64,000 nucleotides of DNA, from the NCBI RefSeq assembly GCF_006636205.1, contig NZ_VIGB01000003.1:5508501-5572500 (forward strand), read 5' to 3'. The notes under the pieces were generated by a model. That model saw only the letters and a program-made list of their open reading frames with translations, ran no database searches and had not been told where the DNA came from. Shown piece by piece: positions 8,904 to 41,794 of the stretch. Position 1 is the first letter of the stretch. Every line of letters begins with the position of its first letter. Source of the DNA: Kitasatospora acidiphila. Lineage in GTDB: Bacteria > Actinomycetota > Actinomycetes > Streptomycetales > Streptomycetaceae. The position numbers and the translations under genes are program-made.

Positions 8904-8915
8904 CTACGCGCGTTA
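8904..8915. promoter_or_regulatory. Nucleoside-regulon palindrome (imperfect) upstream of the BMP importer operon
   Basis: CTACGCGCGTTA matches the 12-bp palindrome CTACGCGCGTAG at ten positions. It sits 49 bp before the TTG start of the BMP lipoprotein gene. Perfect copies precede add, deoC and the purine nucleoside phosphorylase gene. Operator role is inferred. Confidence 0.6.
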
Positions 8916-8963
8916 CGGTGGCGTCCGACCACGCCAAACGGGTGTGTAGAAGGAGATATTCCC

Positions 8964-10028
8964 TTGCGCCGTTCAGTAAAGCTCGCCGCGGTGGTGCTCT
9001 CGGGTTCCCTGGGCATCGCCTCGCTCGCCGCTTGCGGCGCAAAGAGCACCAGCACCTCTTCTTCCGCCAGTGGCGGCGGCTCCGGCATCAAGGTCGGTAT
9101 GGCCTACGACGTCGGCGGCCGTGGCGACCAGGGCTTCAACGACTCGGCCGCGGCCGGCCTGGACAGGGCCAAGACGGACTTCGGCATCACCGCCAACGAG
9201 GCCGAGGCCAAGAACGGTGAGTCCGACTCCGACAAGCAGGCCCGTCTGGAGCAGCTGGTCACCGCCGGTTACAACCCGATCATCGCGGTCGGCTTCGTGT
9301 ACCAGCCCGCGGTCGAGAAGGTCGCCAAGGAGCACCCGAACGTCAAGTTCGCGATCATCGACTCCGACTCGCCGACCCAGCCGTCCAACGTGACCTCGCT
9401 GGAGTTCACCGAGCAGCAGAGCTCGTACCTGGCCGGTATCGCCGCCGCCCTGAAGACCCAGAAGAAGCAGGTCGGCTTCATCGGTGGCGTGCAGTCCGAG
9501 CTGATCAAGAAGTTCGAGGCCGGCTACCGGGCCGGTGTGGCCTCCGTCGACCCGAACATCAAGGTCGACGTCACCTACCTGACCACCCCGCCGGACTTCA
9601 CCGGCTTCAGCGACCCGGCCAAGGGCAAGTCCGCCGCGCAGGGCCAGCTGGACAAGGGCGACGACGTGATCTACACCGCCGCCGGCGCCTCCGGCACCGG
9701 TGCGATCCAGGCCGTGGCCGCCAAGCCGGGCACCTGGGCCATCGGTGTCGACTCCGACCAGGCCAAGCAGACCGCGCTGGCCGCCTACAAGAACCAGATC
9801 CTGACCTCTGCGCTGAAGAACGTGGACACCGCGGTGTACTCGTACATCCAGAGCGTCAAGAACGGCACGCCGGAGACCGGCATCCAGCGCTTCGACCTGA
9901 AGTCGGGCGGTGTCGGCCTGGCCACCACCGGCGGCCACATCGACGACATCAAGGCCAAGCTGGACGCTGCCACCCAGCAGATCGTCTCCGGTACGACCCA
10001 GATCCCGACCGCTCCGTCGGCCGGCTGA
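8964..10028 (+). CDS. BMP family nucleoside-binding lipoprotein of an ABC importer
   Basis: Substrate-binding component of a purine/pyrimidine nucleoside importer, anchored outside the membrane. The TTG start has AAGGAG nearby. The signal peptide ends in the lipobox SLAAC, followed by a Ser/Gly-rich tether and the PnrA-like domain opening GIKVGMAYDVGGRGDQGFND, with the typical GFVYQPAVEKVA and FIGGVQS segments. The length of 354 residues is normal. It heads an operon with an ATPase, two permeases and cytidine deaminase, which supports nucleosides as the ligand. The operator-like palindrome about 50 bp upstream ties it to the deo/add genes. Confidence 0.93.
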   Translation: MRRSVKLAAVVLSGSLGIASLAACGAKSTSTSSSASGGGSGIKVGMAYDVGGRGDQGFNDSAAAGLDRAKTDFGITANEAEAKNGESDSDKQARLEQLVTAGYNPIIAVGFVYQPAVEKVAKEHPNVKFAIIDSDSPTQPSNVTSLEFTEQQSSYLAGIAAALKTQKKQVGFIGGVQSELIKKFEAGYRAGVASVDPNIKVDVTYLTTPPDFTGFSDPAKGKSAAQGQLDKGDDVIYTAAGASGTGAIQAVAAKPGTWAIGVDSDQAKQTALAAYKNQILTSALKNVDTAVYSYIQSVKNGTPETGIQRFDLKSGGVGLATTGGHIDDIKAKLDAATQQIVSGTTQIPTAPSAG

Positions 10029-10221
10029 TCCGGATCTGCCCAGCAGTAGCACTCAGCAGTAGGTAGCAAGGGAGGGGCCCGGTGGGTCGCGCGTGAGCGC
10101 ACTCCGCCGGGCTTCTCCCGTCTCCGCCTCTTCCCCGGCGCGCCGCGTGTTCCCGTCGGCAGCGCACTCAACCCGGCCCTCCCCGGCGCAAGGACGCGCC
10201 CGCCACCACCAGGAGATCGCC

Positions 10222-12020
<1,799 letters not shown>

Positions 12021-12024
<4 letters not shown>

Positions 12025-13217
12025 CCGAGATGACCACTTCGACCGAACCCTCCCCCAGCCTCCCGCCGGGCGGGGCCTCCAGGCGCGGCTGGCTCCGGCG
12101 GATCGACCGCGAGCGGCTGCTGCTGGCCATCGCGGCACCCGTGCTGGCCGTCATCGTCTCGGTGGCGCTCTGCTCGCTGCTGCTCGCCGTCGCCGGGTAC
12201 AACCCCGGCGAGGCGTTCCGGCTGATGTCCACCTACGGCTTCGCCTCCGATGGGCAGGTGGCGATCCTCAACAAGGCGACCACCTACTACATCGCCGGTG
12301 TCGCGGTGGCCTTCGGCTTCCGGATGAACCTGTTCAACATCGGTGCCGACGGCCAGTACCGGCTCGCCGCGCTGTTCGCCGCCTTCGTCGGCGGCGCGGT
12401 GGACCTGCCGTCGTTCATCGAGATCCCGCTGGTGCTGATCACCGCCATGCTGGTCGGCGGCCTGTGGGCGGCCATCGCCGGTGTCCTCAAGGTCACCCGC
12501 GGGGTCAGCGAGGTGATCTCGACGATCATGCTGAACGCGATCACCACCGGTGTCATCGGCCTGCTGCTGGTGCCCGGCCGTTTCGCGCCGAGCGTCAGCA
12601 GCGGCAGCAGCAACAGCATCCAGACCAAGATGATGGCCCCGTCCAGCAACTTCTTCACCTTCAGCACCATGGGCGGCCAGCTCTACGGCTTCATCATCAT
12701 CGCGGTGGTGATCGGTGTGCTGTTCCAGCTGACCCTGAGTCGCACCCGGTTCGGCTTCGACCTGCGGGCCACCGGGCGCTCCGAGGAGGCGGCCGGCGCC
12801 AGCGGCGTCAACGTCAAGCGCATGGTGCTGACCAGCATGTGCGTCTCTGGTGCGCTGGCCGGTCTGATCGGCATGCCGGACCTGCTGTCCGCGGACACCG
12901 GCCACTACTTCGGTCAGAGCTTCCAGGCCGGTATCGGCTTCACCGGCATCGCGATCGCACTGCTCGGCCGCAACACCCCGGTCGGCATCGCCTTTGCGAC
13001 GCTGCTCTGGGCCTTCCTGGACGCCACCGCCGGGCAGCTGTCGACGAACAACTTCCCGCCGGAGATCATCGACGTCATGAAGGGCACCATCGTCATCTGC
13101 GTGGTCGTCGCCTACGAGCTGGTCCGCCGCTTCGGGCTGAAGCGCCAGCAGCAGAAGGTCGGCGCCCAGCTCGCCGCTCAGGCCGCCGCGGCGGCGAAGA
13201 AGGAGGTGGCGGCATGA
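12021..13217 (+). CDS. Nucleoside ABC importer permease (first)
   Basis: Membrane subunit of the importer, BPD_transp_2 type like those of BMP systems. It has several hydrophobic helices, and the family's GFRMNLFNIGADGQY segment near residue 100 and the GVSEVISTIMLNAI segment are clear. The GTG start overlaps the ATPase stop as GTGA, and its own stop overlaps the next permease as ATGA, so all four genes are translationally coupled. Length 398 residues. The C-terminus ends in a Gln/Lys/Ala-rich cytoplasmic tail. Confidence 0.92.
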
Positions 13218-14485
13218 GCACCGCGACCGAGACCCGTCCCAAGCCGGCCGGCAAGGCGCCGGCCAAGGGCGCCAAGAAGCTCTCCTGGCCGATCGTGCTG
13301 CTGCTGTCGGCCGGTGCCCTGGTGCTGTTCTCGGTGGTCGGCATGATCACCGGGAACCACAGCCTGACCTCCTCCGGCCAGGTCTCCGCCGCGCTCGGCG
13401 CCGCAGTGCCGATCGGCATGGCCGGCCTCGGCGGCCTCTGGTCCGAGCGGGCCGGCGTGGTCAACATCGGCCTCGAAGGCATGATGGTGGCCGGCACCTT
13501 CGCCGGCGCCTGGACCGGCTACCTGGTCAACCCCTGGGTCGGCCTGCTGGCCGGCATGGCGGCGGGCGCGCTCGGCGGCCTGCTGCACGCGGTGATCACG
13601 GTCGGCTTCGGCGTCGACCACATCGTCTCCGGTGTCGGCATCAACCTGCTGATCCCCGGTCTGTGCCTGTACATCAACCGGATCTACTACACGGACTACA
13701 TCAGCGCCGGTGCCGGTGCCTCCAAGTCCCCGCCGACCCAGCCGCTGCCGTTCATCACCGTGCAGCACCTGTCGCAGTGGCTGGACAGCGTCGAGGGCCA
13801 CCACTGGTTCCTGATCTCGGACCTGGCCGGCGTGGTCGGCGGTCTGGTCACCAACCTCTCGGTGGTCACGCTGATCGCGGCCGCCCTGCTGGTCGCCAGC
13901 TACTTCATCCTGTGGCGGACCACCTTCGGCCTGCGGCTGCGCTCCTGCGGTGAGAACCCGACCGCCGCCGAGTCGCTGGGCGTCAACGTCTACAAGTACA
14001 AGTACATCGCGGTGATCGCCTCCGGTGGCTTCGCCGGCCTGGGCGGTGCCTACCTGTCGATGGTCGCGGCCAACGTCTTCCAGGACGGGCAGACCGGCGG
14101 CCGCGGCTACATCGGTCTGGCCGCGATGATCTTCGGTAACTGGCTGCCCGGCGGGCTGGCCACCGGCGCGGGCCTGTTCGGCTTCACCGACAGCCTGCAG
14201 CTGCGCGACCCGAGCTCGGTGCACGTGCTGCTGCTGGTCGTCTCGATCGTCCTGGCGCTGCTGGGCCTGTGGAACCTGTACCGCCGCAAGTGGGTCGGTG
14301 CCGCGGTCACCCTGGTGGCGTCCGGTGCGCTGGCGCTCTGGTACGCCTCCACCAGCACCGTGGAGCGTCCGCTGATCGTGGCCTCGCCGTACGTCATCAC
14401 CCTGGTGGTGCTGGCGCTCTCGGCCCAGCGGCTGCGCCCGCCGAAGGCGGACGGCCAGATCTACCGCAAGGGCCAGGGCAAGTGA
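13214..14485 (+). CDS. Nucleoside ABC importer permease (second)
   Basis: Second membrane subunit (423 residues), paired with the preceding permease to form the channel. ATG at 13214 overlaps the previous stop (ATGA). After a Lys/Ala-rich cytoplasmic leader come multiple membrane spans; the family motif LWSERAGVVNIGLEGMMVAG and the loop CGENPTAAESLGVNVYKYKY are both present. The stop overlaps the cytidine deaminase start as GTGA. The larger extracytoplasmic loop (about residues 155-200) is longer than I would expect in short homologues, which may be a lineage feature. Confidence 0.92.
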   Translation: MSTATETRPKPAGKAPAKGAKKLSWPIVLLLSAGALVLFSVVGMITGNHSLTSSGQVSAALGAAVPIGMAGLGGLWSERAGVVNIGLEGMMVAGTFAGAWTGYLVNPWVGLLAGMAAGALGGLLHAVITVGFGVDHIVSGVGINLLIPGLCLYINRIYYTDYISAGAGASKSPPTQPLPFITVQHLSQWLDSVEGHHWFLISDLAGVVGGLVTNLSVVTLIAAALLVASYFILWRTTFGLRLRSCGENPTAAESLGVNVYKYKYIAVIASGGFAGLGGAYLSMVAANVFQDGQTGGRGYIGLAAMIFGNWLPGGLATGAGLFGFTDSLQLRDPSSVHVLLLVVSIVLALLGLWNLYRRKWVGAAVTLVASGALALWYASTSTVERPLIVASPYVITLVVLALSAQRLRPPKADGQIYRKGQGK

Positions 14486-14886
14486 CGGCGGCTCAGGATG
14501 CGGCGGCGATCGACTGGGAGCGGCTGCGGGCCGCGGCCCGGGACGCGATGTCCCGGGCCTACGCCCCCTACAGCAAGTACCCGGTCGGCGCTGCGGCGCT
14601 GGTCGACGACGGTCGGGTGGTGACCGGCTGCAACGTGGAGAACGCCTCCTACGGCCTCGGCCTGTGCGCCGAGTGCGGGCTGGTCTCGGCGCTGTACGCC
14701 AGCGGTGGCGGCCGACTGGTCGCATTCACCTGTGTGGACGGCGCCGGGGAGCCGCTGATGCCGTGCGGCCGCTGCCGCCAGCTGCTCTGGGAGCACGGCG
14801 GTCCTGAACTGCTGGTCGAACTCCCCAGCGGGATCAAGCCGATGACCGAGGTGCTGCCCGACGCCTTCGGTCCGGAGCGGCTGTAG
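14482..14886 (+). CDS. cdd: Cytidine deaminase
   Basis: Deaminates cytidine and deoxycytidine to uridine and deoxyuridine in the cytoplasm. This is a 134-residue homotetrameric-type enzyme. The catalytic zinc motifs are clear: NVENASYGLGLCAEC (zinc Cys and catalytic Glu) and PCGRCRQ (two further zinc Cys), and the substrate-binding PYSKYPVGAA is near the N-terminus. The GTG start is inside the end of the permease gene (GTGA), so import and deamination are coupled in one operon. After the stop, short degenerate repeats of a CGGNTGTAG-like unit run to about 14935. Confidence 0.95.
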   Translation: MTAAQDAAAIDWERLRAAARDAMSRAYAPYSKYPVGAAALVDDGRVVTGCNVENASYGLGLCAECGLVSALYASGGGRLVAFTCVDGAGEPLMPCGRCRQLLWEHGGPELLVELPSGIKPMTEVLPDAFGPERL

Positions 14887-14945
14887 TTCCGGAACGGCTG
14901 TAGCCGGGCCGGTTGTCGTCGGACCGGTTGTAGTCAGCAGTACTG

Positions 14946-14957
14946 TGACGCGCGTAG
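14946..14957. promoter_or_regulatory. Nucleoside-regulon palindrome (one good half) upstream of deoA
   Basis: TGACGCGCGTAG matches CTACGCGCGTAG at ten of twelve positions, with the right half perfect. It directly follows a possible -10 (TACTGT, 14941-14946) and precedes the deoA leader hairpin. Operator function is inferred from the shared motif. Confidence 0.5.
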
Positions 14958-14961
14958 AGTG

Positions 14962-14998
14962 ACGCGTGGGGCGGCCGAGCAGTGGCCGCCCCACGCGT
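14962..14998. terminator. Long perfect hairpin in the cdd-deoA gap (terminator or leader attenuator)
   Basis: Arms ACGCGTGGGGCGGCC (14962-14976) and GGCCGCCCCACGCGT (14984-14998) give a perfect 15-bp stem with a 7-nt loop. A short CTTTTC follows a few bases later. It can end the importer-cdd transcript; since the operator lies just upstream of it, it may also lie in the deoA leader. Confidence 0.75.
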
Positions 14999-15051
14999 TC
15001 CTCGCTTTTCGGGGTCCTGGAGGGCCCCCTTCCTTCCCCTGGAGCCAAGCC

Positions 15052-16329
15052 ATGGACGTCATCTCCGTCATCCGCGCCAAGCGCGACCGCCAGGAGCTGA
15101 CCGATGATCAGATCGACTGGGTGATCGACGCCTACACCCGCGGCGCCGTGGCCGACGAGCAGATGTCCGCACTGGCCATGGCGATCCTGCTGAACGGGAT
15201 GAACCTGCGCGAGATCAGCCGCTGGACCGACGCGATGATCCGCTCCGGCGTCCGGATGGACTTCTCCGGGCTCAGCCTGCCCACCAGTGACAAGCACTCC
15301 ACCGGCGGCGTCGGCGACAAGATCACCCTGCCGCTGGCCCCGCTGGTGGCCGCCTGCGGTGCCGCCGTGCCGCAGCTCTCCGGGCGCGGCCTCGGCCACA
15401 CCGGCGGCACCCTGGACAAGCTGGAGTCGATCCCCGGCTGGCGGGCGCTGCTCTCCAACGAGGAGATGCTCCAGGTGCTGGGCGACACCGGCGCGGTGAT
15501 CTGCGCGGCCGGTGACGGGCTGGCCCCCGCCGACAAGAAGCTCTACGCGCTGCGTGATGTCACCGGCACCGTCGAGGCGATCCCGCTGATCGCCTCCTCG
15601 ATCATGTCCAAGAAGATCGCCGAGGGCACCGGGGCACTGGTGCTGGACGTCAAGGTCGGCTCCGGGGCCTTCATGAAGAACCTGGCGGACGCCCAGGAGC
15701 TGGCCCGCACCATGGTCGGCCTGGGCCGCGGCGCCGGGGTCAACACGGTGGCGCTGCTCACCGACATGTCCACCCCGCTCGGCCTGACCGCCGGCAACGC
15801 CCTCGAGGTCCGCGAGTCGGTCGAGGTGCTGGCCGGCGGCGGCCCCGCCGACGTGGTGGAGCTGACCGTCGCGCTCGCCCGGGAGATGCTGGCCGCCGCC
15901 GGCGTGCACGGCAAGGACCCGGCCGAGGCCCTGCGGGACGGATCCGCGATGGACCACTGGCGCCGCATGATCAGCGCGCAGGGCGGCGACGTGGACGCGC
16001 CGCTGCCGGTCGCCAAGGAGCAGCACGTGATCGCGGCCCCGGCCACCGGCGTGCTGACCGCCCTCGACGCCTACGCGGTCGGCGTCTGCGCCTGGCGCCT
16101 CGGCGCCGGCCGGGCCCGCAAGGAGGACCCGGTGCAGGCCGGAGCGGGCGTCGAGATGCACGCCAAGCCGGGCGACACCGTCACAGCCGGCCAGCCCCTG
16201 CTGACCCTGCACACCGACACCCCCGAGCGCTTCGACTACGCCATCGAGGCCCTGGCCGGCGGCATCGAGGTCTCCCCGGTGGGCACCGAGTACACCCGCA
16301 CGCCGCTGATCCTGGACCGGATCGGCTGA
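15052..16329 (+). CDS. deoA: Thymidine phosphorylase
   Basis: Splits thymidine and deoxyuridine with phosphate to the base and 2-deoxyribose-1-phosphate. The 425-residue length fits the family. The signature SGRGLGHTGGTLDKLESIPG is complete, the phosphate-binding KHSTGGVGDK precedes it, and the C-terminal alpha/beta domain ends normally with FDYAIEALAGGIEV. The ATG has GGAG about seven bases upstream. It follows cdd in the pathway sense (deoxycytidine to deoxyuridine to uracil) and carries the shared operator upstream. It ends at a strong hairpin. Confidence 0.94.
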   Translation: MDVISVIRAKRDRQELTDDQIDWVIDAYTRGAVADEQMSALAMAILLNGMNLREISRWTDAMIRSGVRMDFSGLSLPTSDKHSTGGVGDKITLPLAPLVAACGAAVPQLSGRGLGHTGGTLDKLESIPGWRALLSNEEMLQVLGDTGAVICAAGDGLAPADKKLYALRDVTGTVEAIPLIASSIMSKKIAEGTGALVLDVKVGSGAFMKNLADAQELARTMVGLGRGAGVNTVALLTDMSTPLGLTAGNALEVRESVEVLAGGGPADVVELTVALAREMLAAAGVHGKDPAEALRDGSAMDHWRRMISAQGGDVDAPLPVAKEQHVIAAPATGVLTALDAYAVGVCAWRLGAGRARKEDPVQAGAGVEMHAKPGDTVTAGQPLLTLHTDTPERFDYAIEALAGGIEVSPVGTEYTRTPLILDRIG

Positions 16330-16336
16330 GCACGCC

Positions 16337-16373
16337 GACGGCCCGGTGCGTCCCCGCGGCGCACCGGGCCGTC
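16337..16373 (+). terminator. Terminator after deoA
   Basis: GACGGCCCGGTGCG (16337-16350) pairs perfectly with CGCACCGGGCCGTC (16360-16373), a 14-bp stem with a 9-nt loop. It lies between the ends of deoA and the leftward Uma2 gene and may serve both. Confidence 0.85.
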
Positions 16374-16400
16374 GAGGCGGTGAGAGCCGCCGCGGCTCGG

Positions 16401-18412: not shown

Positions 18413-18440
18413 CCATTCCATGCGTCCAATACATGAATGG
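18413..18440. promoter_or_regulatory. Candidate LysR operator between the divergent MFS and regulator genes
   Basis: CCATTCCATG (18413-18422) and CATGAATGG (18432-18440) form an inverted repeat with a one-base indel, separated by nine bases. It lies in the short gap between divergent starts, the normal place for a LysR-type binding site. The adjacent GATAAT (18443-18448) may be the regulator's own -10. Confidence 0.5.
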
Positions 18441-18458
18441 GCGATAATCAATGCTGTG

Positions 18459-19448
18459 ATGCATGAGCGGTCCCAGTCGGCGTCGGCCCAGTCCGCGTTG
18501 GCCCAGCCTTCGTTGGCCCAGCCTTCGTTCGAGCTCGGCCCCGATGCCCCGGGCGTCATCCTGGCGCCCCGGCTGGCCCAGTTCGCCGCCGTGGCGCGAC
18601 TGGAGCACATCACCCGGGCCGCGGAGGAACTGGGCATGCCGCAGCCCACGCTGTCCCGAGCGATCGCCCGGTTGGAGGCGGAGCTGGGGGTCGCCCTGCT
18701 GGCCCGGCAGGGCCGCGCGGTGCGGCTGACCAGGGCGGGTCGGCTGCTGCTCGACGCGGTCGAGCGGGCGCTGGCCGAGCTGGACCGGGGCGCGGCGGCG
18801 ATGCTGGCCGAGACCGACCCGGCGAGCGGCCGGGTGGCCTTCGGGTTTCTCCACACCATGGGGACGGATGCGGTCCCGGCGCTGCTGCGCGGCTTCAGGG
18901 CCGACCATCCGGGGGTGAGGTTCCAACTGGTGCAGGACTATGTGGCGGCGATGCTGGAACGGCTGCGCGCCGGTGAGCTGGACCTCTGCCTGGTCTCGCC
19001 GATTCCGTCCGAGCCCGAGTTGACGGCCCGCCAACTGGACGAGCAGCAGCTTTACTTGGCGGTTCCGGCCGACCACCGGCTGGCGGTGCGGCGGCGGATC
19101 CGGCTGGCGGAGGCGGCGGAGGAGCCGTTCGTCGCGGTGGAGTACGGCTACGGGCTGCGCACCATCACGGACGAGTTCTGCGCCCAGGCCGGCTTCACTC
19201 CGCGGATCGCCTTCGAGGGTGAGGACACCGAGACGCTGCGCGGCTTGGTCGCGGCCGGGCTCGGGGTGGCGCTGCTGCCGCCGGGTCTGGTGCCGCGGCC
19301 CGGGGTGGTCGAGCTGGCGGTGACGGCGCCGCGCACCCGGCGGGCGATCGGGCTCGCCTGGGTGACCGGCCGGCCGCTGCCGCCGCCAGCCGAGGCGTTC
19401 CGCGACTTCGTGCTCGCTCGGCGGGGGCGGTTGTTGGATCACGGGTGA
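18459..19448 (+). CDS. LysR family transcriptional regulator
   Basis: DNA-binding regulator of about 330 residues. The N-terminal winged helix is clear (FAAVARLEHITRAAEELGMPQPTLSRAIARLEAELG), followed by the effector-binding domain with typical segments such as LDLCLVSP and VAAGLGVALLPPG. ATG at 18459 is chosen; a frame from 18420 would run through the candidate operator. The 25 residues before the HTH are a short Ser/Ala/Gln repeat (SAQSALAQPSLAQPS), longer than usual. It is expected to control the divergent MFS-Uma2 pair and itself. Confidence 0.9.
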   Translation: MHERSQSASAQSALAQPSLAQPSFELGPDAPGVILAPRLAQFAAVARLEHITRAAEELGMPQPTLSRAIARLEAELGVALLARQGRAVRLTRAGRLLLDAVERALAELDRGAAAMLAETDPASGRVAFGFLHTMGTDAVPALLRGFRADHPGVRFQLVQDYVAAMLERLRAGELDLCLVSPIPSEPELTARQLDEQQLYLAVPADHRLAVRRRIRLAEAAEEPFVAVEYGYGLRTITDEFCAQAGFTPRIAFEGEDTETLRGLVAAGLGVALLPPGLVPRPGVVELAVTAPRTRRAIGLAWVTGRPLPPPAEAFRDFVLARRGRLLDHG

Positions 19449-19461
19449 CGGGGCGAGGGTT

Positions 19462-19664
19462 AATAATGCCCATTATTGCAGCCTGCTTGTCGCGGCGTGG
19501 GGTGCGCGAGTGGGTTGTTAATAATGGGCATTATTAGCGCCCACTGCCGGTTTGGGTGAGGCGCCGGGCCCCGGCGTGGGCGGGGTTCCAGGCTGGGGGC
19601 AGATAGCGGTTCAGGAAATGCTAATGGCCATTATTAATGAGCCGCATTAATAATGGCCAATACC
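19462..19664. promoter_or_regulatory. Array of four AT-rich palindromes, consensus AATAATG-N2-CATTATT
   Basis: Site A at 19462-19477 (AATAATG-CC-CATTATT) and site B at 19520-19535 (AATAATG-GG-CATTATT, extending one base each side) are perfect. Site C at 19620-19635 keeps CATTATT and a TAATGGCCATTA core. Site D at 19649-19664 keeps AATAATG. They fill the gap between the LysR gene and add, in DNA otherwise over 65% GC. This is likely a multi-site operator for an unknown regulator; nothing in the window obviously encodes it. Confidence 0.7.
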
Positions 19665-19695: not shown

Positions 19696-19725
19696 TTGGG
19701 TATCTACGCGCGTAGGGCTTAGACT
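19696..19725 (+). promoter_or_regulatory. add promoter with perfect CTACGCGCGTAG operator in the spacer
   Basis: TTGGGT (19696-19701) and TAGACT (19720-19725) are 18 bp apart and can serve as -35 and -10. The palindrome at 19704-19715 lies fully inside the spacer, as expected for a repressor site. The -10 is six bases before the ATG, so the mRNA is probably leaderless. Confidence 0.65.
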
Positions 19726-19731: not shown

Positions 19732-20879
19732 ATGCAGAAGCAGATCCCTCTCCCCGCGGGCACCACGGCCCCGCGCATCCCCACCGCCGAGCAGATCCGC
19801 CGCGCCCCAAGGTCGTGCTGCACGACCACCTGGACGGCGGCCTCCGCCCCGAGACGATCGTCGAGCTCGCCGCCGCCTGCGGCTACCAGAAGCTGCCCAC
19901 CACCGACCCGGCCAAGCTGGGCATCTGGTTCCGCGAGGCCGCCGACTCCGGCTCGCTGGAGCGCTACCTGGAGACCTTCGCGCACACCTGCGCCGTGATG
20001 CAGACCCGCGAGGGCCTGGTCCGCGTCGCCGCCGAGGCCGCCGAGGACCTGGCCGCCGACGGCGTGGTCTACGCCGAGGTGCGCTACGCCCCCGAGCAGC
20101 ACCTGGAGGGCGGCCTGACCCTGGACGAGGTGGTCGAGGCGGTCCAGGAGGGCTTCCGGATCGGCGAGGCCAACGCCCGCGCCAACGGCGACCGGATCAA
20201 GGTGGGCACCCTGATCACCGCCATGCGCCACGCCGCCCGCTCCCAGGAGATCGCCGAGCTGGCCAACCGCCACCGCGACACCGGCGTGGTCGGCTTCGAC
20301 ATCGCCGGTGCCGAGGCCGGCTTCCCGCCCACCCGCCACCAGGCCGCCTTCGACTACCTCAAGGGCGAGAACAACCACTTCACCATCCACGCCGGTGAGG
20401 CCTTCGGGCTGCCGTCGATCTGGGAGGCGCTGCAGTGCTGCGGCGCGGACCGGCTCGGTCACGGCGTGCGGATCACCGACGACATCACCGTGCACGACGA
20501 CGGCACCGTGACGCTCGGCCGGCTGGCCGCCTACGTCCGGGACAAGCGGATCCCGCTGGAGATGTGCCCCACCTCCAACCTGCAGACCGGTGCCGCCAGT
20601 TCCTACGCCGAGCACCCGATCGGCCTGCTCACCCGCCTGAAGTACCGGGTCACCGTGAACACCGACAACCGGCTGATGAGCGGCACCAGCATGAGCCAGG
20701 AGTTCGCCCACCTGATCGAGGCGTTCGGCTACGACCTGGACGACATGCAGTGGTTCACCGTCAACGCGCTGAAGTCGGCGTTCCTGCCGTTCGACGAGCG
20801 GCTGGCGATGATCAACGACGTGGTCAAGCCCGGCTATGCCGAGCTGAAGGCCGAGTGGCTGTTCGGCTCCTCGTCCTGA
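19732..20879 (+). CDS. add: Adenosine deaminase, with an apparent one-base frameshift near 19805-19808
   Basis: Deaminates adenosine and deoxyadenosine to inosine forms. Reading from ATG at 19732 gives [16 protein letters not shown]...AEQIRRAP, which then leaves frame; the next frame continues at once with [17 protein letters not shown]. Adding one C to the CCCC at 19805-19808 restores a protein of about 382 residues. Metal and catalytic motifs are intact: [43 protein letters not shown] and [13 protein letters not shown] start at GTG 19815 would lose the first beta strand just before the HxH motif. A base-calling error is more likely than decay. Operator and AT-rich palindromes lie upstream. 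Confidence 0.88.
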
Positions 20880-26989: not shown

Positions 26990-26990
26990 G

Positions 26991-32299: not shown

Positions 32300-33286
32300 T
32301 CAGTCCACCGTCACGTAGTCGGGACCGGAGTACCGTCCGGTGGTCAGCTTCTGACGCTGCATCAGGAGATCGTTGAGCAGGCTGGAGGCGCCGAAGCGGA
32401 ACCAGTGCGGGCTCAGCCAATCGTCGCCCAGGGTCTCGTTGACCATCACCAGGTACTTCATGGCGTCCTTGGTGGTCCGGATGCCGCCGGCCGGCTTCAC
32501 GCCGACCTGGATGCCGGTCTGCGCCCGGAAGTCGCGGACGGCTTCGAGCATCAGCAGGGTCACCGGGGGAGTGGCGTTGACGGCCACCTTGCCGGTCGAG
32601 GTCTTGATGAAGTCGGCGCCGGCCAGCATCGCCAGCCAGGAGGCCCGGCGCACGTTGTCATAGGTCTGCAGCTCGCCGGTCTCGAAGATCACCTTGAGGT
32701 GGGCCGAGGTGCCGTCGGGGCGCTTGCATGCCTCCTTGACGGCGGTGATCTCGTTGAAGACGTCCAGGTAGCGGCCGGAGAGGAAGGCGCCGCGGTCGAT
32801 CACCATGTCGATCTCGTCGGCGCCGGCGGCCACCGCGTCGGCGGTGTCGGCCAGCTTCACCGGCAGCGCGGCGCGGCCGGCCGGGAAGGCGGTGGCGACC
32901 GAGGCGACCTGGATGTCGGTGCCCTTCAGCGCCTCCTTGGCGGTGGCGACCATGTCCGGGTAGACGCAGATCGCGGCGACGCGGGGGGCGGTGGGGTCGC
33001 TCGGGTCGGGGTTCCGGCCCTTGGCGCACAGGGAGCGCACCTTGCCGACCGTGTCCGCGCCTTCGAGCGTGGTCAGGTCGATCATCGAGATGGCCAGGTC
33101 GATGGCGTACGCCTTGGCCGTGGTCTTGATCGAACGGGTGCCGAGGGCGGCGGCGCGGGCCTCCAGGCCGACTTGGTCGACGCCGGGCAGGCCGTGCAGG
33201 AAGCGGCGGAGCGAGGCCTCGGACGCCGCGACGTCCTTCAGACCGCCGCCCGCAGCGCCGGGGGCATTGGCTGCAAGAGTGGACAT
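32300..33286 (-). CDS. deoC: Deoxyribose-phosphate aldolase
   Basis: Cleaves 2-deoxyribose-5-phosphate to glyceraldehyde-3-phosphate and acetaldehyde. It is a class I aldolase of 328 residues, like the longer eukaryotic/actinobacterial DERA. The Schiff-base lysine is in GADFIKTSTGKVAVNAT, the second key Lys in VGVKPAGGIRTTKDAM, and the Asp in AGADEIDMVIDRGAFLSG. ATG at 33286 is likely; GTG at 33290-33292 is two codons upstream. A perfect CTACGCGCGTAG palindrome lies 20 bp before the start. It heads an operon with two aldehyde dehydrogenase genes. Confidence 0.94.
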   Translation of the reverse strand: MSTLAANAPGAAGGGLKDVAASEASLRRFLHGLPGVDQVGLEARAAALGTRSIKTTAKAYAIDLAISMIDLTTLEGADTVGKVRSLCAKGRNPDPSDPTAPRVAAICVYPDMVATAKEALKGTDIQVASVATAFPAGRAALPVKLADTADAVAAGADEIDMVIDRGAFLSGRYLDVFNEITAVKEACKRPDGTSAHLKVIFETGELQTYDNVRRASWLAMLAGADFIKTSTGKVAVNATPPVTLLMLEAVRDFRAQTGIQVGVKPAGGIRTTKDAMKYLVMVNETLGDDWLSPHWFRFGASSLLNDLLMQRQKLTTGRYSGPDYVTVD

Positions 33287-33305
33287 AGTCACCAGAGCAG
33301 CATAT

Positions 33306-33317
33306 CTACGCGCGTAG
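33306..33317. promoter_or_regulatory. Perfect nucleoside-regulon palindrome upstream of deoC
   Basis: CTACGCGCGTAG, 20 bp before the deoC ATG, overlapping the likely promoter (TATGCT follows on the minus strand). It is identical to the sites upstream of add and the purine nucleoside phosphorylase gene. Confidence 0.75.
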
Positions 33318-34243: not shown

Positions 34244-34486
34244 GCTGGCTCCTCGGTGGGGGACGATCAGGATGCTCGTGCTCCGACCCCAAGCCGGTGT
34301 GGGCGGCTGTGAGGCGGTGGCAGTAAAGGATGGCCAACTGTCATGAGTAGGTCAAGAGCCTTGGCATTACTGAGTGCTGGCTGAATGGCCGCGCCAAGTC
34401 GAAGGCTTGACGGTGTTTGTGGGGTCTGGCTTCGAGCTACCCGAAATCAAGTGGCGGCAGCGAGGCCTGAGCAGAAGGCTCGCACT

Positions 34487-35389: not shown

Positions 35390-35416
35390 CGTGAACTGTC
35401 CCCTTTGAGAACCACC

Positions 35417-36385: not shown

Positions 36386-37386
36386 TCCCCCGACTCCCCG
36401 CCGTACAACTCGGCGAGGGCCTGCGCGTGCTCGCGGAAGCGGGCCCGCAGGCCCGCCGGGGCCAGTACCTCCACCTGCGCACCCAGCCCGACCAACTGGG
36501 CGAAGGCGACCTCCTCCGACTCCACCGGCACGCTGAGCGTGACCCGCCCGTCGGCGTCCGGCGCGGTCGCGGAGGCAGCCGCCCCGGTCACGCCGGCCGG
36601 GTCCACCACGGCGGGCAGACGGCGCAGCCCCTGCTCCGTCAGCCGCACGGTGACGGTCGTGCGCAGCAGCGCCCGGGCGAAGGAGCCGGCCTGCGCCTGC
36701 CAGTGCGCGGCCAGGTCGAAGGACGGGTCGCGGGCGAAGGGTTCACCGGGAGCGGGGGAGAGCCCCGTGACGCGATCGACGCGGTAGGTGCGCCAAGCGC
36801 CGTCCGGGACCCGGCAGACGACGTACCACACCCCCGCCTTCAGGACGAGCCCGTACGGCTCCACCAGGCGGGTCACCACGCGGGGCGGCGCCCCGTCCCG
36901 GGCAGGGCGCGCATAGGCCAGCTCGACCGTGCGGTCGGACCACACGGCACGGGCCAGCTCCGGCAGCAACTCCGGCGCCGACGGCTCGCGGAACCAGGCC
37001 GGGGCGTCGAGGTGGAAGCGGCGCGTCGACGACTCGGCCGCCGCGCGCAGCGACGGGAGCAGGGTGGCCGACAGCTTCAGTCGGGCCACCTCCGCCGCGT
37101 CCGACAGCCCGAGATCGCGCAGCGCCGCGGGCAGGCCGGAGAGGTAGAGCGTCTCCGCCTCGGTGGGATGCAGCGTGGTGAGCCGGGTCCGGTAGCCCGG
37201 CGCCAGGTGGTAGCCGCCCGCCCGGCCGCGCTCGGCCCGGATCGGTACCCCTGCCTCCTGCAGGGCCTGCGCGTCACGCTTCACCGTGCGCGCGGACACC
37301 CCCAGCTCGCGGGCGAGGGCGGCAGCGGGCAGCCCGGGGCTGGACTGGACGAGGAGCGTCATGCGGATCAGACGGGCGGCACGCAT
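36376..37386 (-). CDS. YafY-type WYL domain transcriptional regulator
   Basis: DNA-binding regulator of 336 residues. The N-terminal HTH_11 winged helix (RLIRMTLLVQSSPGLPAAALARELGVSARTVKRDAQALQEAGVPI) is followed by a WYL domain (VEPYGLVLKAGVWYVVCRVPDGAWRTYRVDRVTGL) and a WCX extension at the C-terminus. It is convergent with the SDR gene, ends overlapping by 10 bp. Such pairs occur repeatedly in Streptomyces, so it probably controls the SDR, though no operator was found. Confidence 0.9.
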   Translation of the reverse strand: MRAARLIRMTLLVQSSPGLPAAALARELGVSARTVKRDAQALQEAGVPIRAERGRAGGYHLAPGYRTRLTTLHPTEAETLYLSGLPAALRDLGLSDAAEVARLKLSATLLPSLRAAAESSTRRFHLDAPAWFREPSAPELLPELARAVWSDRTVELAYARPARDGAPPRVVTRLVEPYGLVLKAGVWYVVCRVPDGAWRTYRVDRVTGLSPAPGEPFARDPSFDLAAHWQAQAGSFARALLRTTVTVRLTEQGLRRLPAVVDPAGVTGAAASATAPDADGRVTLSVPVESEEVAFAQLVGLGAQVEVLAPAGLRARFREHAQALAELYGGESGDQR

Positions 37387-37419
37387 GGCTCAAGGATCCC
37401 CTCGCCTCGAACGCGAGCT

Positions 37420-37779
37420 TCAGCGCTGCGGCCGCAGCCCCGCCAGGGCGCGCCGCAGCTCGCCGTACCCGCGCGGCGTGTGGAAGGCCGCCTCCTGGTT
37501 GTTGCGCAGCACGGTCACCCGGTACGGCACTTGGCCGGTGAGCCGCAGTACGGCGGCGAACGGGGTGAGCAGCAGGCGGATCAGCCACTCGACCAGCCAG
37601 AGCGGGACCAGCACGGCGAGGACGATCATGGCGGGCAGCGCCAGCAGGAACGAGATCGGATCCTGCCCGAGCCCGCCGGGGATGATGTCGTTGGCCCACT
37701 CCGGCTTGATCCGCCGCACGCCGGCCAGCCGGTGCCGTCTGATCCGCCAGCAGACGCCCTTCGCGTCTCTCCAGCGCAT
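37420..37779 (-). CDS. Small membrane protein of unknown function
   Basis: A 119-residue protein. The polar N-terminus (MRWRDAKGVCWRIRRHRL) precedes two closely spaced hydrophobic segments (about 40-80: ISFLLALPAMIVLAVLVPLWLVEWLIRLLLTPFAAVL) and a cytoplasmic C-terminus with RVTVLRNNQEAAFHTPRGYGELRRAL. ATG at 37779 has GGGAGGCACGGG upstream and is chosen over a longer frame from 37848. The LVEW-LIRLLLTP arrangement recurs in Streptomyces membrane proteins, but I do not know a function. Confidence 0.7.
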   Translation of the reverse strand: MRWRDAKGVCWRIRRHRLAGVRRIKPEWANDIIPGGLGQDPISFLLALPAMIVLAVLVPLWLVEWLIRLLLTPFAAVLRLTGQVPYRVTVLRNNQEAAFHTPRGYGELRRALAGLRPQR

Positions 37780-37963
37780 ACCCGTGCCTCCCCGTTCCCC
37801 GTGTGTCGGCGGGTGAATATGCCAGAGGTATCGGACGCTTGTCAGCAAAACGCTCGAGAAAGCTCAAATCCCGCACAGATCCTGCGGGAGGGCGGATAAC
37901 GACCAGCTTGACGCGGGTAGCGTCCACCTCAAGGGGAGGACCGCCTGCCGGGGAGGTGGCACC

Positions 37964-38272
37964 GTGTTCGAGTCGGCGCAGTGGCCGTTGGTCTGGGCCG
38001 GGTTCCTGCTGATCGCCGTGAGCGTTCGGCTGTCGGTGACGGTGCGGGCGCACCGGCACCGGCGGCTGCGGGCGGAGCGGCGGCCCAGCCATCTGGAGTG
38101 GCTGCCGGGCCTGGCCGGCCTGATCGCGGTGGTGGACGACGGGCCGCGGGTGCTGAGGGCCGACGGCACGGTGCTGGCCGTGACCGGCGAGCTCGCCAGG
38201 ATCGCGGGCGCCGGGGTGCTCGTCCTGGCGCTCTACGGGGCCATCGTGCTGGTCCGGCGGCCGAGGGGCTGA
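37964..38272 (+). CDS. Small membrane protein of unknown function
   Basis: A 102-residue protein with two hydrophobic segments (about 8-26 and 78-97) separated by a polar Arg-rich region. The GTG start has GGGGAGGTGG seven bases upstream, a strong Shine-Dalgarno. It is transcribed alone, 80 bp before the PH-like protein gene. No domain recognised. Confidence 0.6.
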   Translation: MFESAQWPLVWAGFLLIAVSVRLSVTVRAHRHRRLRAERRPSHLEWLPGLAGLIAVVDDGPRVLRADGTVLAVTGELARIAGAGVLVLALYGAIVLVRRPRG

Positions 38273-38353
38273 CCGGAAGGTTGCCGGGTTGCGGCCGAAC
38301 GGTGACCAGTGCGTCCCCGGGTAGCACGGGACCCATGGGGCAGAATCGTCACC

Positions 38354-39030
38354 ATGACCGAATCCGACGGCACGCCCGACCCGGGCACTGCCGCCCCGCC
38401 GACGAGCCGAAGTACGCCGACCAGGTCTTCCGCTCGATGCCCGGCATCATCTCCGGCGTCATGCTGCTGCTCGTCGCCGGCTGGCTGATCGTCGACGCGA
38501 TGGTGAGCAGCACCGGGAAGACCCCGTGGGTCGCGCTGGCCGCCGCTCCCGTGTTCGCCTTCCCGGTGATCGCCTACACGCTGCGCCCCGCCGTCACGGC
38601 CGGGCTCGACCGGGTGGTGATCCGCAACCCGCTGCGCACCGTCACCGTGCCGTGGGCCGAGGTGGAGGGGCTGCGCGCCGGGTACTCGGCGGAGCTGCTG
38701 GCCGGCGGCCGCAGCTTCCAGATGTGGGCGGTCCCGGTCTCGCTGCGCCAGCGCAAGAAGGCCAACCGGCGGGTGGCGCGCAGCGCCGCGGAGGGCGACC
38801 CGCGCGCCAAGCTGGCGGCCGAGGCCCGGGCTCGCCGCGGTGCCGTGCCCGGTGCGCCGGACCCCAACCGCGCCTGGTCCGACCAGGTGGTCGACCTGCT
38901 GCGCGAGCAGGCCGAGCGGAACGCCGTCCGCCCGAGCGCCAAGGGCGAGATCACCGTGGCGTGGTGCTGGTGGGTGATCGCCCCGACCCTGGCCGGGCTG
39001 GTGGCCCTGATCACCCTGCTGTCCGTCTGA
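38354..39030 (+). CDS. PH domain-like membrane protein, apparent one-base frameshift near 38394-38397
   Basis: A bacterial PH-domain (bPH2-like) protein with two N-terminal membrane spans. ATG at 38354 gives MTESDGTPDPGTAAP, then leaves frame. The next frame reads DEPKYADQVFRSMPGIISGVMLLLVAGWLIVDAMV, the normal N-terminus of this Streptomyces family, and continues through VTVPWAEVEGLRAGYSAELLAGGRSFQMWAVPVSL to a third hydrophobic segment at the end. Adding one C to CCCC at 38394-38397 gives about 226 residues. Role unknown; the PWAEVEGL segment is typical of bPH domains. Confidence 0.78.
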
Positions 39031-39047
39031 GGCATCAGGAACACGGA

Positions 39048-39086
39048 GCGGCCCGCGTCCCCCGATACTCGGGGGACGCGGGCCGC
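39048..39086. terminator. Bidirectional terminator between the PH-like and phosphosugar mutase genes
   Basis: A perfect 18-bp stem: GCGGCCCGCGTCCCCCGA (39048-39065) with its complement at 39069-39086 and a 3-nt loop. It separates two convergent genes. Confidence 0.9.
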
Positions 39087-39103
39087 AGCCGTCGTACCGG
39101 GGG

Positions 39104-40774
39104 TCAGATCCCCGCGGTCACCGCGAGGTCCCGCTTGAGCGCGCCCAGCAGCTCGGCGGCCCGCTCCCGGGCGCCGGCCAGCTCCGCGGCCGAGCCCACC
39201 GGCAGCACGACCTCCAGGTAGCACTTGAGCTTGGGCTCGGTCCCGGACGGCCGGACCACGATCCGGGCGCCGCGCACCGCCTCGCCCGCCAGGTAGTAGC
39301 GCAGCCCGTCGGTGGGCGGCAGGTCGGCGCTGCCCGCCGTCAGGTCGTCGGCCCGGGTGACGGTCAGTCCGGCCAGCGCGGTCGGCGGCTGCTCGCGCAG
39401 GGTGCGCATCGCGGCGGCGATCAGCGACAGGTCCTCGACCCGGACCGACAGCTGGTCGGTGGCGTGCAGGCCGTGGGTCAGCGCCAGCTCGTCCAGCAGG
39501 TCGGTCAGGGTGCGCCCGTCCCGCTTGAGGCCGGCGGCCAGCTCGGCGACCAGCAGCGCGGCGGTGATGCCGTCCTTGTCCCGGACGCCCTCGGGGTCGA
39601 CGCAGTAGCCGAGCGCCTCCTCGTAGCCGTAGCGCAGGCCGTCGGCGCGGGAGATCCACTTGAAGCCGGTCAGGGTCTCGGCGTACCCGAGCCCGGCGGC
39701 CTCGGCGATCCGGCCGAGCAGGGTGGACGAGACGATGGTGGTGGCGAAGGTGCCCTTGGCCTGCTTGGCGACCAGCGCGGCGCCGAGCAGCGCGCCCACC
39801 TCGTCGCCGCGCAGCATCCGCCAGCCGGTCGGGGCGGCGGCGTCCGGCACGGCCACCGCGCAGCGGTCGGCGTCCGGGTCGTTGGCGATCACCAGGTCCG
39901 GGCCGGCCTCGGCGGCGGTGGCGAAGGCCAGGTCCATCGCGCCGGGCTCCTCCGGGTTGGGGAAGGCCACGGTGGGGAACTCCGGATCCGGGTCGGCCTG
40001 CGCGGCGACGACCGTCGGCGCCGGGAAGCCGGCCTGGCGCCAGGCGGCCAGCAGGGTGTCCCGGCCGACCCCGTGCAGCGGGGTGTAGACCACGTTCAGG
40101 TCGCGCGGACCGTCCGGGTCCAGCACGGCCTGGGCCCGGGCCAGGTAGGCGTCGACGACCTCGTCGCCGAGCAGCTGCCAGCCGTCGGCGGCGAGCGGGG
40201 CGTCGGACAGCGAGCCGATGGCGTCGATCTCGGCGGCGATCGCGGCGTCGGCCGGGGGCACGATCTGCGAGCCGTCGCCCAGGTAGACCTTGTAGCCGTT
40301 GTCCTGCGGCGGGTTGTGGCTGGCCGTCACCATCACGCCGGCCGCCGCGCCCAGGTGGCGGATCGCGAAGGCGAGCACCGGGGTGGGCAGCGGGCCCGGC
40401 AGCAGCGCGGCGCGCAGGCCGGCGCCGACCATCACCGCGGCGGTGTCCCGGGCGAAGTCGTAGGACTTGTGCCGGGCGTCGTAGCCGACCACCACGAGGT
40501 CGCCGGCCCCGCCGGCGCGCAGGTACCCGGCCAGGCCGGCGGCGGCCCGGATCACCACGGCGCGGTTCATCCGCATCGGGCCGGCGCCGAGCTCACCGCG
40601 CAGGCCGGCGGTGCCGAACTGCAGCCGGTCGGCGAACCGCTCGGCCAGCTGCTGCCAGTCGTCGCCCGCCTCGGCGGCGGCCAGCAGGGCGGCCAGCTCG
40701 TCGCGGGTCTGGGGGTCGGGGTCCTCGGCCAGCCACTGCTGGACCCGGGCCTTGAGGTTGGTGGTGTCGGCCAT
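39104..40774 (-). CDS. Phospho-sugar mutase (PGM2-like; candidate phosphopentomutase)
   Basis: Alpha-D-phosphohexomutase-superfamily enzyme of 556 residues. It has the catalytic phosphoserine loop GVMVTASHNPPQDNGYKVY, the metal loop in ANDPDADRCAVAV, the sugar-binding GDEVGALLG and YEEALGYCVDP, and the phosphate-binding VVRPSGTEPKLKCYLEV. The opening LQFGTAGLRGELGAGPMRMN is typical of the PGM2/YhxB branch, which includes phosphopentomutases, rather than the AlgC branch. It follows the purine nucleoside phosphorylase gene, so conversion of (deoxy)ribose-1-phosphate to the 5-phosphate is a natural role, feeding DeoC. Annotation as phosphomannomutase is possible. ATG with GGAG upstream. Confidence 0.9.
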   Translation of the reverse strand: MADTTNLKARVQQWLAEDPDPQTRDELAALLAAAEAGDDWQQLAERFADRLQFGTAGLRGELGAGPMRMNRAVVIRAAAGLAGYLRAGGAGDLVVVGYDARHKSYDFARDTAAVMVGAGLRAALLPGPLPTPVLAFAIRHLGAAAGVMVTASHNPPQDNGYKVYLGDGSQIVPPADAAIAAEIDAIGSLSDAPLAADGWQLLGDEVVDAYLARAQAVLDPDGPRDLNVVYTPLHGVGRDTLLAAWRQAGFPAPTVVAAQADPDPEFPTVAFPNPEEPGAMDLAFATAAEAGPDLVIANDPDADRCAVAVPDAAAPTGWRMLRGDEVGALLGAALVAKQAKGTFATTIVSSTLLGRIAEAAGLGYAETLTGFKWISRADGLRYGYEEALGYCVDPEGVRDKDGITAALLVAELAAGLKRDGRTLTDLLDELALTHGLHATDQLSVRVEDLSLIAAAMRTLREQPPTALAGLTVTRADDLTAGSADLPPTDGLRYYLAGEAVRGARIVVRPSGTEPKLKCYLEVVLPVGSAAELAGARERAAELLGALKRDLAVTAGI

Positions 40775-40786
40775 CGCTCACTCCGG

Positions 40787-40846
40787 AATCAGAGGATCGT
40801 CAATCAGAGGATCGTCAATCAGAGGGTCGTCAATCAGAGGGTCATC
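40787..40846. repeat. Four tandem 15-bp repeats, AATCAGAGG(A/G)TC(G/A)TC
   Basis: Units at 40787, 40802, 40817 and 40832 are nearly identical; a partial, rearranged unit (AGGATCAGAGGATCATC) follows to about 40864. They lie in the leader between the phosphorylase and mutase genes, immediately before the mutase Shine-Dalgarno on the minus strand. Confidence 0.9.
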
Positions 40847-40879
40847 AAGAGGATCAGAGGATCATCAGAAGACAGGAAG

Positions 40880-40909
40880 CGGCCCGGGCGCGTGTCCGCA
40901 CCCGGGCCG
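40880..40909 (-). terminator. Hairpin after the purine nucleoside phosphorylase gene
   Basis: CGGCCCGGG (40880-40888) with CCCGGGCCG (40901-40909), a perfect 9-bp stem with a 12-nt loop, 10 bp after the stop. It may end or reduce transcription before the downstream mutase gene. Confidence 0.7.
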
Positions 40910-40919
40910 TGGTGGAACG

Positions 40920-41756
40920 TCAGATCCGCTCCAGGACCTTCGCCAGCAGCTCGCCCATCCGCTCGGCGGAGGCCTTGCCGGCCTCCAGCACCTCTTCGTG
41001 GTTGAGCGGCTCGCCGGTGATGCCGGCGGCCAGGTTGGTGACCAGCGAGATGCCCAGCACCTCGGTGCCGGCCTCGCGGGCGGCGATGGCCTCCAGGGTG
41101 GTGGACATGCCGACCAGCTCGCCGCCGATCACCCGGGCCATGTTGACCTCGGCCGGGGTCTCGTAGTGCGGGCCGCGGAACTGCACGTAGACGGCCTCGT
41201 CCAGGCTCGGGTCGACCTCCTTGCAGAGGGCGCGCAGCCGCTTGGAGTACAGGTCGGTGAGGTCGACGAAGTTGGCGCCGACGATCGGGGAGTCCGCGGT
41301 CAGGTTGATGTGGTCGCTGATCAGCACCGGCTGGCCGGGCTGCCAGCCCTGGCGCAGGCCGCCGCAGCCGTTGGTGAGCACGATGGTCTGGCAGCCCGCC
41401 GCGGCGGCGGTGCGGACACCGTGCACCACGGTGGCCACGCCGTGGCCCTCGTAGTAGTGGTTGCGGCCGAGGAAGATCAGCGCCCGCTTACCGTCTGAAT
41501 CGTCGCTGGCGATCTTCACCGAGCGGATCTTGCCCGCGTGGCCGGCCACGGCGGGGGCGGGGAACCCGGGCAGCTCGGTGACGGGGAATTCCGCCACCGT
41601 CTCACCGAGGGCGTCGGCGGCCGGCACCCAGCCGGAGCCCATCACGAGGGCGACGTCGTGGCGCTCGGCGCCGGTCAGCTCGCGCAGCTTGGCTGCGGCG
41701 GCCTGAGCGGCGGCATAGGGGTCGGCGGACACGGCGGTCTGAGGAGAAGCGTTCAC
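40920..41756 (-). CDS. Purine nucleoside phosphorylase
   Basis: Splits inosine, guanosine and their deoxy forms with phosphate to base plus (deoxy)ribose-1-phosphate. This is the trimeric type (278 residues): [12 protein letters not shown] (phosphate-binding Ser), [19 protein letters not shown], the [12 protein letters not shown] signature with the base-binding Glu, [11 protein letters not shown] and [12 protein letters not shown] at 41756 is preferred: TATCCT lies seven bases upstream, giving a leaderless mRNA; TTG at 41774 is the alternative but overlaps this promoter. A perfect CTACGCGCGTAG operator is 26 bp upstream. The adjacent phosphosugar mutase is the logical next step. Confidence 0.93.
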
Positions 41757-41782
41757 ACGGCCGAGGATAGACAAGAAAATGC

Positions 41783-41794
41783 CTACGCGCGTAG
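41783..41794. promoter_or_regulatory. Perfect nucleoside-regulon palindrome upstream of the purine nucleoside phosphorylase gene
   Basis: CTACGCGCGTAG, 14-25 bp upstream of the likely -10 (TATCCT, 41764-41769 on the minus strand), covering the -35 position. It is identical to the add and deoC sites. Confidence 0.75.

Follow-up and report, generated by a model that had tools for sequence, protein, structure and literature searches.

In a 64,000-nt stretch of the Kitasatospora acidiphila genome (contig NZ_VIGB01000003.1, positions 5,508,501 to 5,572,500; called the window below, positions being those of the window unless a locus is named), the palindrome CTACGCGCGTAG is found upstream of five genes or operons for the import and breakdown of nucleosides. 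Our analysis suggests that this 12-mer is the operator of a nucleic-acid scavenging regulon which extends over the family Streptomycetaceae, and that the protein binding it is most likely a repressor of the LacI family encoded outside the window (L094, G000:C3:4076375-4077442). We consider this reading probable. The regulon would comprise likely secreted nucleases, a 5'-nucleotidase, a nucleoside importer, cytidine and adenosine deaminases, DeoA, purine nucleoside phosphorylase and DeoC, with the purine synthesis genes purNH and purF attached.

A preliminary description of the window had listed three perfect and two imperfect copies of the palindrome, and all five were re-found. The perfect copies are located upstream of add (19704..19715, plus strand), deoC (33306..33317, minus strand) and pnp (41783..41794, minus strand). 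The copies upstream of the importer-cdd operon (8904..8915, plus strand, CTACGCGCGTTA) and of deoA (14946..14957, plus strand, TGACGCGCGTAG) match at ten of twelve positions. In addition to the word search, a scoring matrix and recurrence in other genera argue for the importer site, the matrix and relatives for the deoA site, relatives for the add site, and the named loci described below for the deoC and pnp sites.

After removal of the minus-strand rows, by which palindromic words are listed twice, the exact 12-mer was counted three times in the window, while 0.001-0.003 copies were expected according to Markov models of orders 1-4. In the 8.58-Mb genome it occurs four times versus 0.2-0.4 expected by models of the same orders trained on the window, and three of the four copies precede three nucleoside genes. 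Similarly, the core TACGCGCGTA is present three times in the window at an expectation of 0.05, a number reached in none of 100 shuffles. Sites with up to two mismatches are not above chance (five seen, 3.93 expected, and 36 of 100 shuffles reach five), so that the argument is based on the exact copies and on conservation. A control with the reversed word speaks against enrichment of degenerate sites in the whole genome, where, with one mismatch allowed, 26 copies of the reversed word were counted as compared to 14 of the motif; enrichment is seen only for the exact 12-mer (4 versus 1 reversed) and for the core (8 versus 2 reversed cores). The two imperfect sites are supported separately. With a matrix built from 31 sites of other genera, the five sites have the five top scores in the window (22.9, 22.9, 22.9, 8.7 and 8.7 bits; next best 4.0), and the word at 8904 recurs before the BMP gene in two other genera (L337 in g17 and L338 in g9). 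Alignment of 49 sites, most of which were picked for an exact core, gave a consensus with the half-sites CTACGC and GCGTAG. Conservation around it fades at approximately position 7 from the centre, which corresponds to an operator of 12-14 bp, K-CTACGCGCGTAG-M. No Rfam matches were found in the region 7000-46000 of the window.

The gene names given in the preliminary description were upheld by Pfam. The putative target operon behind the first site (8964..14886, plus strand) encodes a BMP/PnrA-like binding protein, an ABC ATPase, two permeases and a cytidine deaminase. It is followed by deoA for pyrimidine nucleoside phosphorylase (14959..16329, plus strand; this is the open reading frame as listed, and the true start may be further in) and by add for adenosine deaminase (19732..20879, plus strand, with the likely start ATG 19732). 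The remaining two targets, deoC for deoxyribose-phosphate aldolase (32300..33292, Pfam DeoC) and pnp for purine nucleoside phosphorylase (40920..41774, Pfam PNP_UDP_1), are encoded on the minus strand. The site had been placed between or on the -35 and -10 elements where a promoter could be drawn. By eye, -10-like hexamers were seen at add, deoC, pnp and deoA. The distance from the end of the operator to a -10-like hexamer is 4 bases at add (TAGACT), 1 base at deoC (TATGCT) and 13 bases at pnp (TATCCT), and at deoA the operator overlaps the -10-like element TAGAGT. For the importer operon, no clear promoter was seen by eye.

Of 200 family genomes, 199 contain the exact 12-mer, as do 16 of 17 genera, with 748 sites as compared to 81 of the reversed word, and in 16 genomes of the same genus the core was counted 132 times versus 36 times for its reversed form. 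In ten genomes of other families there was no enrichment of the core (21 versus 45 reversed), and none of the ten loci fetched out of these 21 outgroup sites was near the query genes. Thirty loci from the survey of the 200 genomes were inspected, the 21 named ones of which originate one each from 21 genomes of genus g12. At 27 of the 30 loci the site precedes nucleoside genes (12 pnp, 10 importer ATPase, 4 add, 1 deoC); two further sites lie inside a coding gene (L133, L155) and one lies at the start of a secreted-type protein (L128).

A second set consisted of 80 named loci from Kitasatospora, Streptomyces, Streptacidiphilus, Peterkaempfera and three records under other names. Here all 126 exact 12-mers are located before pnp (78) or deoC (48). 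When genes cut by a contig end were excluded, which left 78 pnp and 47 deoC promoters of 80, the site was exact in all 78 pnp promoters and in 45 of the 47 deoC promoters, the other two having one mismatch. In the random control of this set, 16 of 400 windows had an exact site because the target sites had been left unmasked. Furthermore, 20 pnp neighbourhoods were fetched, 15 of them from family genomes of 8 other genera and 5 from outgroup genomes. In all 15 family neighbourhoods pnp and/or deoC have the site, exact or with one mismatch; the pnp of G050 is an exception without the site, and this genome keeps the add site. The add site is exact in the g7, g10 and g17 genomes in which add was fetched, and has one mismatch in g16. 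Counts of the 12-mer had raised the suspicion that g7, g10 and g16 had lost the motif; this was rejected, as exact or one-mismatch copies are present in their pnp, deoC or add promoters. Across genera, the site is therefore kept before orthologous genes.

In all five outgroup genomes, which belong to other families, the pnp neighbourhood is kept and no site within one mismatch is present. In four of them (G016, G017, G019 and G024) wider stretches contain M20, BMP (29-49% identity), ABC, permease, deoA and add genes, again with no site of up to one mismatch. Some words with three mismatches, such as AAACGCGCGTGG before the BMP gene of G016, exist in outgroup promoters and may be due to chance or represent remnants. 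Judging from this distribution, the operator before these genes may have arisen on one branch.

The idea of a nucleoside-salvage regulon put forward in the preliminary description is supported by these data, but the proposed scope turned out to be too small: nucleases, a 5'-nucleotidase, a second adenosine deaminase, purNH and purF also have the site. Instead of being equally common before unrelated genes, exact copies are rare and concentrated before genes related to nucleosides and nucleic acids. Of the eight cores in the K. acidiphila genome, add, deoC and pnp have one each. One lies before a 5'-nucleotidase gene (L014), accompanied by a second, weaker copy at a distance of 15 bases, two are in tandem before a protein with an HNH-like motif (L005), one precedes an Ig-domain protein (L001), and one is in locus L018. 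The L005 protein has no Pfam or NCBIfam match, and its HNH reading is based on the motif seen by eye. The core at L018:1500, TATACGCGCGTAAA, falls into the gap between two converging genes, for a P450 and a pirin as judged by eye, and no gene there suggests itself as its target.

Ten 12-mers with one mismatch exist in the same genome. Three of them (L005, L006, L014) coincide with core sites, one precedes a PLD-like protein (L007) and one is located before purF (L010, named by eye; the homologue L083 is purF according to Pfam). The other five (L008, L009, L011, L012, L013) are among the unassigned sites, and some of them score like accepted sites. Since L008, although unassigned, reaches 21.5 bits, a high matrix score alone is insufficient for target status. 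L013 was considered as a folD site and rejected, the frame having 17 codons only. The K. acidiphila purNH carries CTACGCGCGTCA (L342:12631), and in the g17 genome G065 CAACGCGCGTAG is located upstream of purN (L351:13770). Based on these two sites we count purine synthesis in the regulon with moderate confidence.

To this can be added all 45 core sites of five relatives of the same genus, 40 of which are in recurrent or fitting contexts: add, deoC, pnp and the Ig-domain protein (5 each), deoA and purNH (4 each), an ExeM/NucH-type nuclease and rpoB (3 each), a second adenosine deaminase and an MFS transporter (2 each), a 5'-nucleotidase and purF (1 each). Five of the 45 sites (L049, L059, L060, L062, L072) and one of 15 single loci (L045 among L033-L047) are outside the assigned contexts. 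The add site is exact in all five relatives, and the deoA site TTACGCGCGTAG is found at the same place in four of them. The sites upstream of rpoB, present in three of these five relatives and at four of the 15 single loci, are doubtful as targets, because this region is conserved irrespective of the site and because the matrix gives them a low score (11.1 bits). The nucleases of the relatives are below the cut-off of the NCBIfam model ExeM_NucH_DNase and above that of Pfam Exo_endo_phos (two of three scanned); according to their signal-like N-termini, read by eye, they are likely secreted. Just upstream of one nuclease gene of the ExeM/NucH type, a regulator is encoded (L079:2607-3632) which has a LuxR-type HTH and weakly matches TrmB; it adjoins the nuclease in two other relatives as well (L038, L044).

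Which protein binds the operator? The preliminary description had pointed to the central CG and the even symmetry as LacI-like features and had named the DeoR-type protein in the window as another candidate. The first proposal agrees with the family rule, an even palindrome with central CG being described as the usual LacI-family operator in the available part of PMC4052901; it is favoured here in the form of a gene outside the window. The DeoR proposal fared worse, since the DeoR promoter lacks the site. Autoregulatory sites are reported for 72% of LacI regulators in the same part of PMC4052901. We scored the promoters of eleven regulator genes, namely eight LacI genes and those for DeoR, LysR and AraC. 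Among the eight LacI genes, only L094 is preceded by an operator-like site, CATACACGCGTAGA, which with 16.7 bits scores similarly to the deoA and importer sites. The other seven reach at most 1.2 bits, the DeoR promoter -0.5 bits, and those of LysR and AraC still less. With the matrix from the 31 sites of other genera, which has no site of the K. acidiphila genome in its training set, the L094 site scores 17.4 bits. The L094 protein has the LacI HTH (PF00356) over the cut-off, and its alignment with CcpA, RbsR and PurR covers the greater part of the protein, in line with a LacI-type effector core.

At E<=1e-60, orthologues of L094 are present in all 25 genomes examined of the same genus and in none of 16 genomes outside the family. 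All 20 genomes examined from 16 further genera of the family also have one. When the promoters of these 45 orthologues were scanned with a training set including the five window sites, a near-site of at least 6.2 bits was detected in 38 of them, the median of the 45 being 9.7 bits. Among random 63-bp windows, from which those holding the ten-base operator core were skipped, about 0.1% reach 6 bits and about 1 in 20,000 reaches 9.7 bits. In 39 promoters with a TAGA[CA]T -10 element, the A of the left half is kept in 37 and the C in 36, while the flanks vary. The near-site is thus conserved, although mostly weaker than the target sites. In 14 of the 25 genomes of the same genus a second protein, mostly 62-68% identical to L094, is encoded; at the five loci fetched (L123-L127) its recognition helix is nearly the same and its promoter has no operator-like site.

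Several observations weigh against L094 as the binder. In most promoters its near-site differs from the core at two positions, and it is absent from all seven promoters of g7 (3), g10 (3) and g16 (1), genera which keep the pnp, deoC or add sites; in these genera the recognition helix is either unchanged or differs by a single terminal Ile-to-Val exchange. The L094 gene is unlinked to the targets, whereas the DeoR gene is linked, and in the genomes examined both genes share the same family limits. Among solved structures, CcpA, which is no nucleoside regulator, ranks first for L094. With 12-14 bp the operator is shorter than the 16-22 nt given for LacI operators in PMC4052901, as far as its available part goes. 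Finally, the regulator screen was limited to the LacI family apart from the DeoR, LysR and AraC promoters, and the list of LacI genes is probably incomplete: at least eight genes exceeded the Pfam cut-off (ten matches, 150 candidates having been scored out of 175), as against approximately 32 LacI genes given for a Streptomycetaceae genome in the same source.

Such incompleteness leaves room for a third regulator, and we regard it as unlikely that another LacI or a GntR/HutC, TetR, MarR or XRE protein binds the site. Several kinds of regulators are compatible with a short contiguous palindrome, and the GntR/HutC protein NupR controls nucleoside transport in Bacillus thuringiensis, according to the available text of PMC9430930. 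On the other hand, L094 stands out clearly among the eleven promoters scored.

The DeoR/GlpR-family regulator in the window (44104..45093, plus strand, assigned by Pfam) would bind the same operator and sense a sugar phosphate such as deoxyribose-5-phosphate, in a logic similar to that of the Escherichia coli DeoR. Its gene is located 2.3 kb from pnp, it is present in all 14 family neighbourhoods long enough to show it, and it was not found in the pnp neighbourhood of the five outgroup genomes which keep pnp and pmm without the site. Moreover, its sole solved-structure match is the effector domain of the E. coli DeoR (E 1.1e-7). Nevertheless, the negative score of its own promoter is in line with the relatives: in 80 of 80 loci the DeoR promoter has no site within one mismatch (1 of 80 at two mismatches), by which autoregulation through the 12-mer was rejected. 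Among the NCBIfam equivalogs listed, none scored above its cut-off for this protein, and the E. coli DeoR model came tenth with 74.9 of 244 bits; purNH and purF would be odd targets for a sensor of deoxyribose phosphate. Taken together, DeoR is an unlikely binder, though it stays a rival candidate. At 43990-44040, before the DeoR gene, lies an inverted repeat rich in GC (GGCGCGCA ... TGCGCGCC), which recurs by eye in several genera; it could be the pmm terminator or a DeoR site. The gene SCO4920 of Streptomyces coelicolor, assigned to the DeoR family in PMC4848846, is by gene order the probable counterpart of the DeoR gene in the window.

That the word is conserved without any repressor, by chance, by promoter composition, as the Z-DNA-prone CGCGCG or as a hairpin-telomere site, is very hard to believe: the 10-mer TACGCGCGTA is printed in the available parts of hairpin-telomere papers (PMC12624138 on TelN of phage N15, PMC3540006 on linear covalently closed vectors), probably by coincidence, and the reversed word is the commoner one in the K. 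acidiphila genome at up to one mismatch, but the few exact copies in front of nucleoside genes, the excess within the family, and the missing excess and unrelated loci in other families contradict it.

The LysR gene at 18420-19448, just upstream of add, was also considered as the regulator and rejected. Its own promoter lacks the site, and it was not found beside add in the fetched stretch of G050, where the add site is kept. Between this gene and add (19461-19655) lie the AT-rich palindromic words AATAATGCCCATTATT, AATAATGGGCATTATT and AATGGCCATT, and all five TAATAATG/CATTATTA words of the window fall within this region; they are possibly sites of a second add regulator. The add gene itself is apparently frame-shifted in this assembly (19732-19815): the frame of ATG 19732 contains EQIRRAP, while the rest matched by Pfam (open reading frame 19815-20879) is in a different frame. 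In the relative L054, add reads through in a single frame. The break seems to be either a sequencing slip or a broken gene.

In the L094-based model, the repressor would sit over the -35/-10 stretch of its targets, where a bound dimer would block RNA polymerase, and via the weaker site also over its own promoter. It would leave the DNA when a product of nucleic-acid breakdown accumulates. The graded match, which is perfect at add, deoC and pnp and weaker at deoA, the importer and the lacI gene, would give a graded release. Before they sporulate, streptomycetes degrade a large part of their own mycelium, and they are surrounded by extracellular DNA. Since the operator is kept before the same genes and is present in nearly all sampled family genomes, the regulon is directly testable.

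Coordinated nucleoside regulons are known in other bacteria. Literature searches by sequence word, topic and gene name gave no description of the 12-mer or 10-mer as a regulatory site, or of this operator; a site shown as a logo, given in supplementary tables or published behind a subscription would have been missed by them. UriR, AdeR and HpxR are local LacI-family regulators of nucleoside use, and the two mentions of Streptomycetaceae in the available part of PMC4052901 do not describe this regulon. For L094, the UriR model gives 133 bits at a cut-off of 550.

L094 follows a gene which we take, by eye, to be of the GlnR type, and by this gene order it is apparently the orthologue of SCO4158 of Streptomyces coelicolor. 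According to its title, the paper of Meng et al. from 2012 reportedly deals with the effect of SCO4158 on an antibiotic pigment. Our proposal would thus provide a job for a LacI regulator mentioned mainly for this effect and, if true, would connect the recycling of nucleic acids with the supply of purines and possibly with the production of antibiotics. SCO4158 is described as a LacI gene directly downstream of glnR and suggested as a possible regulator of glnR in the available part of PMC9739823, which gives no target set.

The E. coli DeoR controls deoC, deoA and purine nucleoside phosphorylase through an operator unrelated to the 12-mer. As in that regulon, a DeoR-family gene is part of the cluster in K. 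acidiphila; unlike there, the favoured regulator belongs to another family and the promoter of the DeoR gene in the window is without the motif. More similar are PurR, RbsR and CytR of Enterobacterales, LacI-family regulators of purine synthesis, ribose and nucleoside genes, for which the family rule of an even palindrome around a central CG holds as well. The NCBIfam models scoring highest for L094 are two of RbsR, followed by those of PurR and CytR, all of them below the cut-off (193 of 382 and 182 of 531 bits for the RbsR models, 171 of 501 for PurR, 169 of 436 for CytR), so that L094 is not assigned as an orthologue of any of them. Its identity to the E. coli proteins is 30% (PurR), 32% (RbsR) and 29% (CytR). 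An Arg common to E. coli PurR (R196), RbsR and CytR is a His in all 45 L094 orthologues, and beside this His an insertion GDPVxDH is present in 43 of the 45. This suggests that the ligand of L094 is probably not that of PurR, RbsR or CytR. The system differs from theirs also in its operator of 12-14 bp and in that one motif joins nucleases, import, breakdown and purine synthesis. It is tempting to speculate that a single LacI repressor with an altered pocket governs scavenging from the outside to the inside of the cell together with purF and purNH, in which case one signal would be shared by purine synthesis and the reuse of DNA, such as that of dying mycelium. The ExeM/NucH-type, HNH-like and PLD-like proteins, the 5'-nucleotidase, the importer, the deaminases, the phosphorylases and DeoC would then all be under its control. 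With its linkage of nucleases to purine synthesis and its unusual LacI pocket, the system may represent a variant of the known nucleoside regulons.

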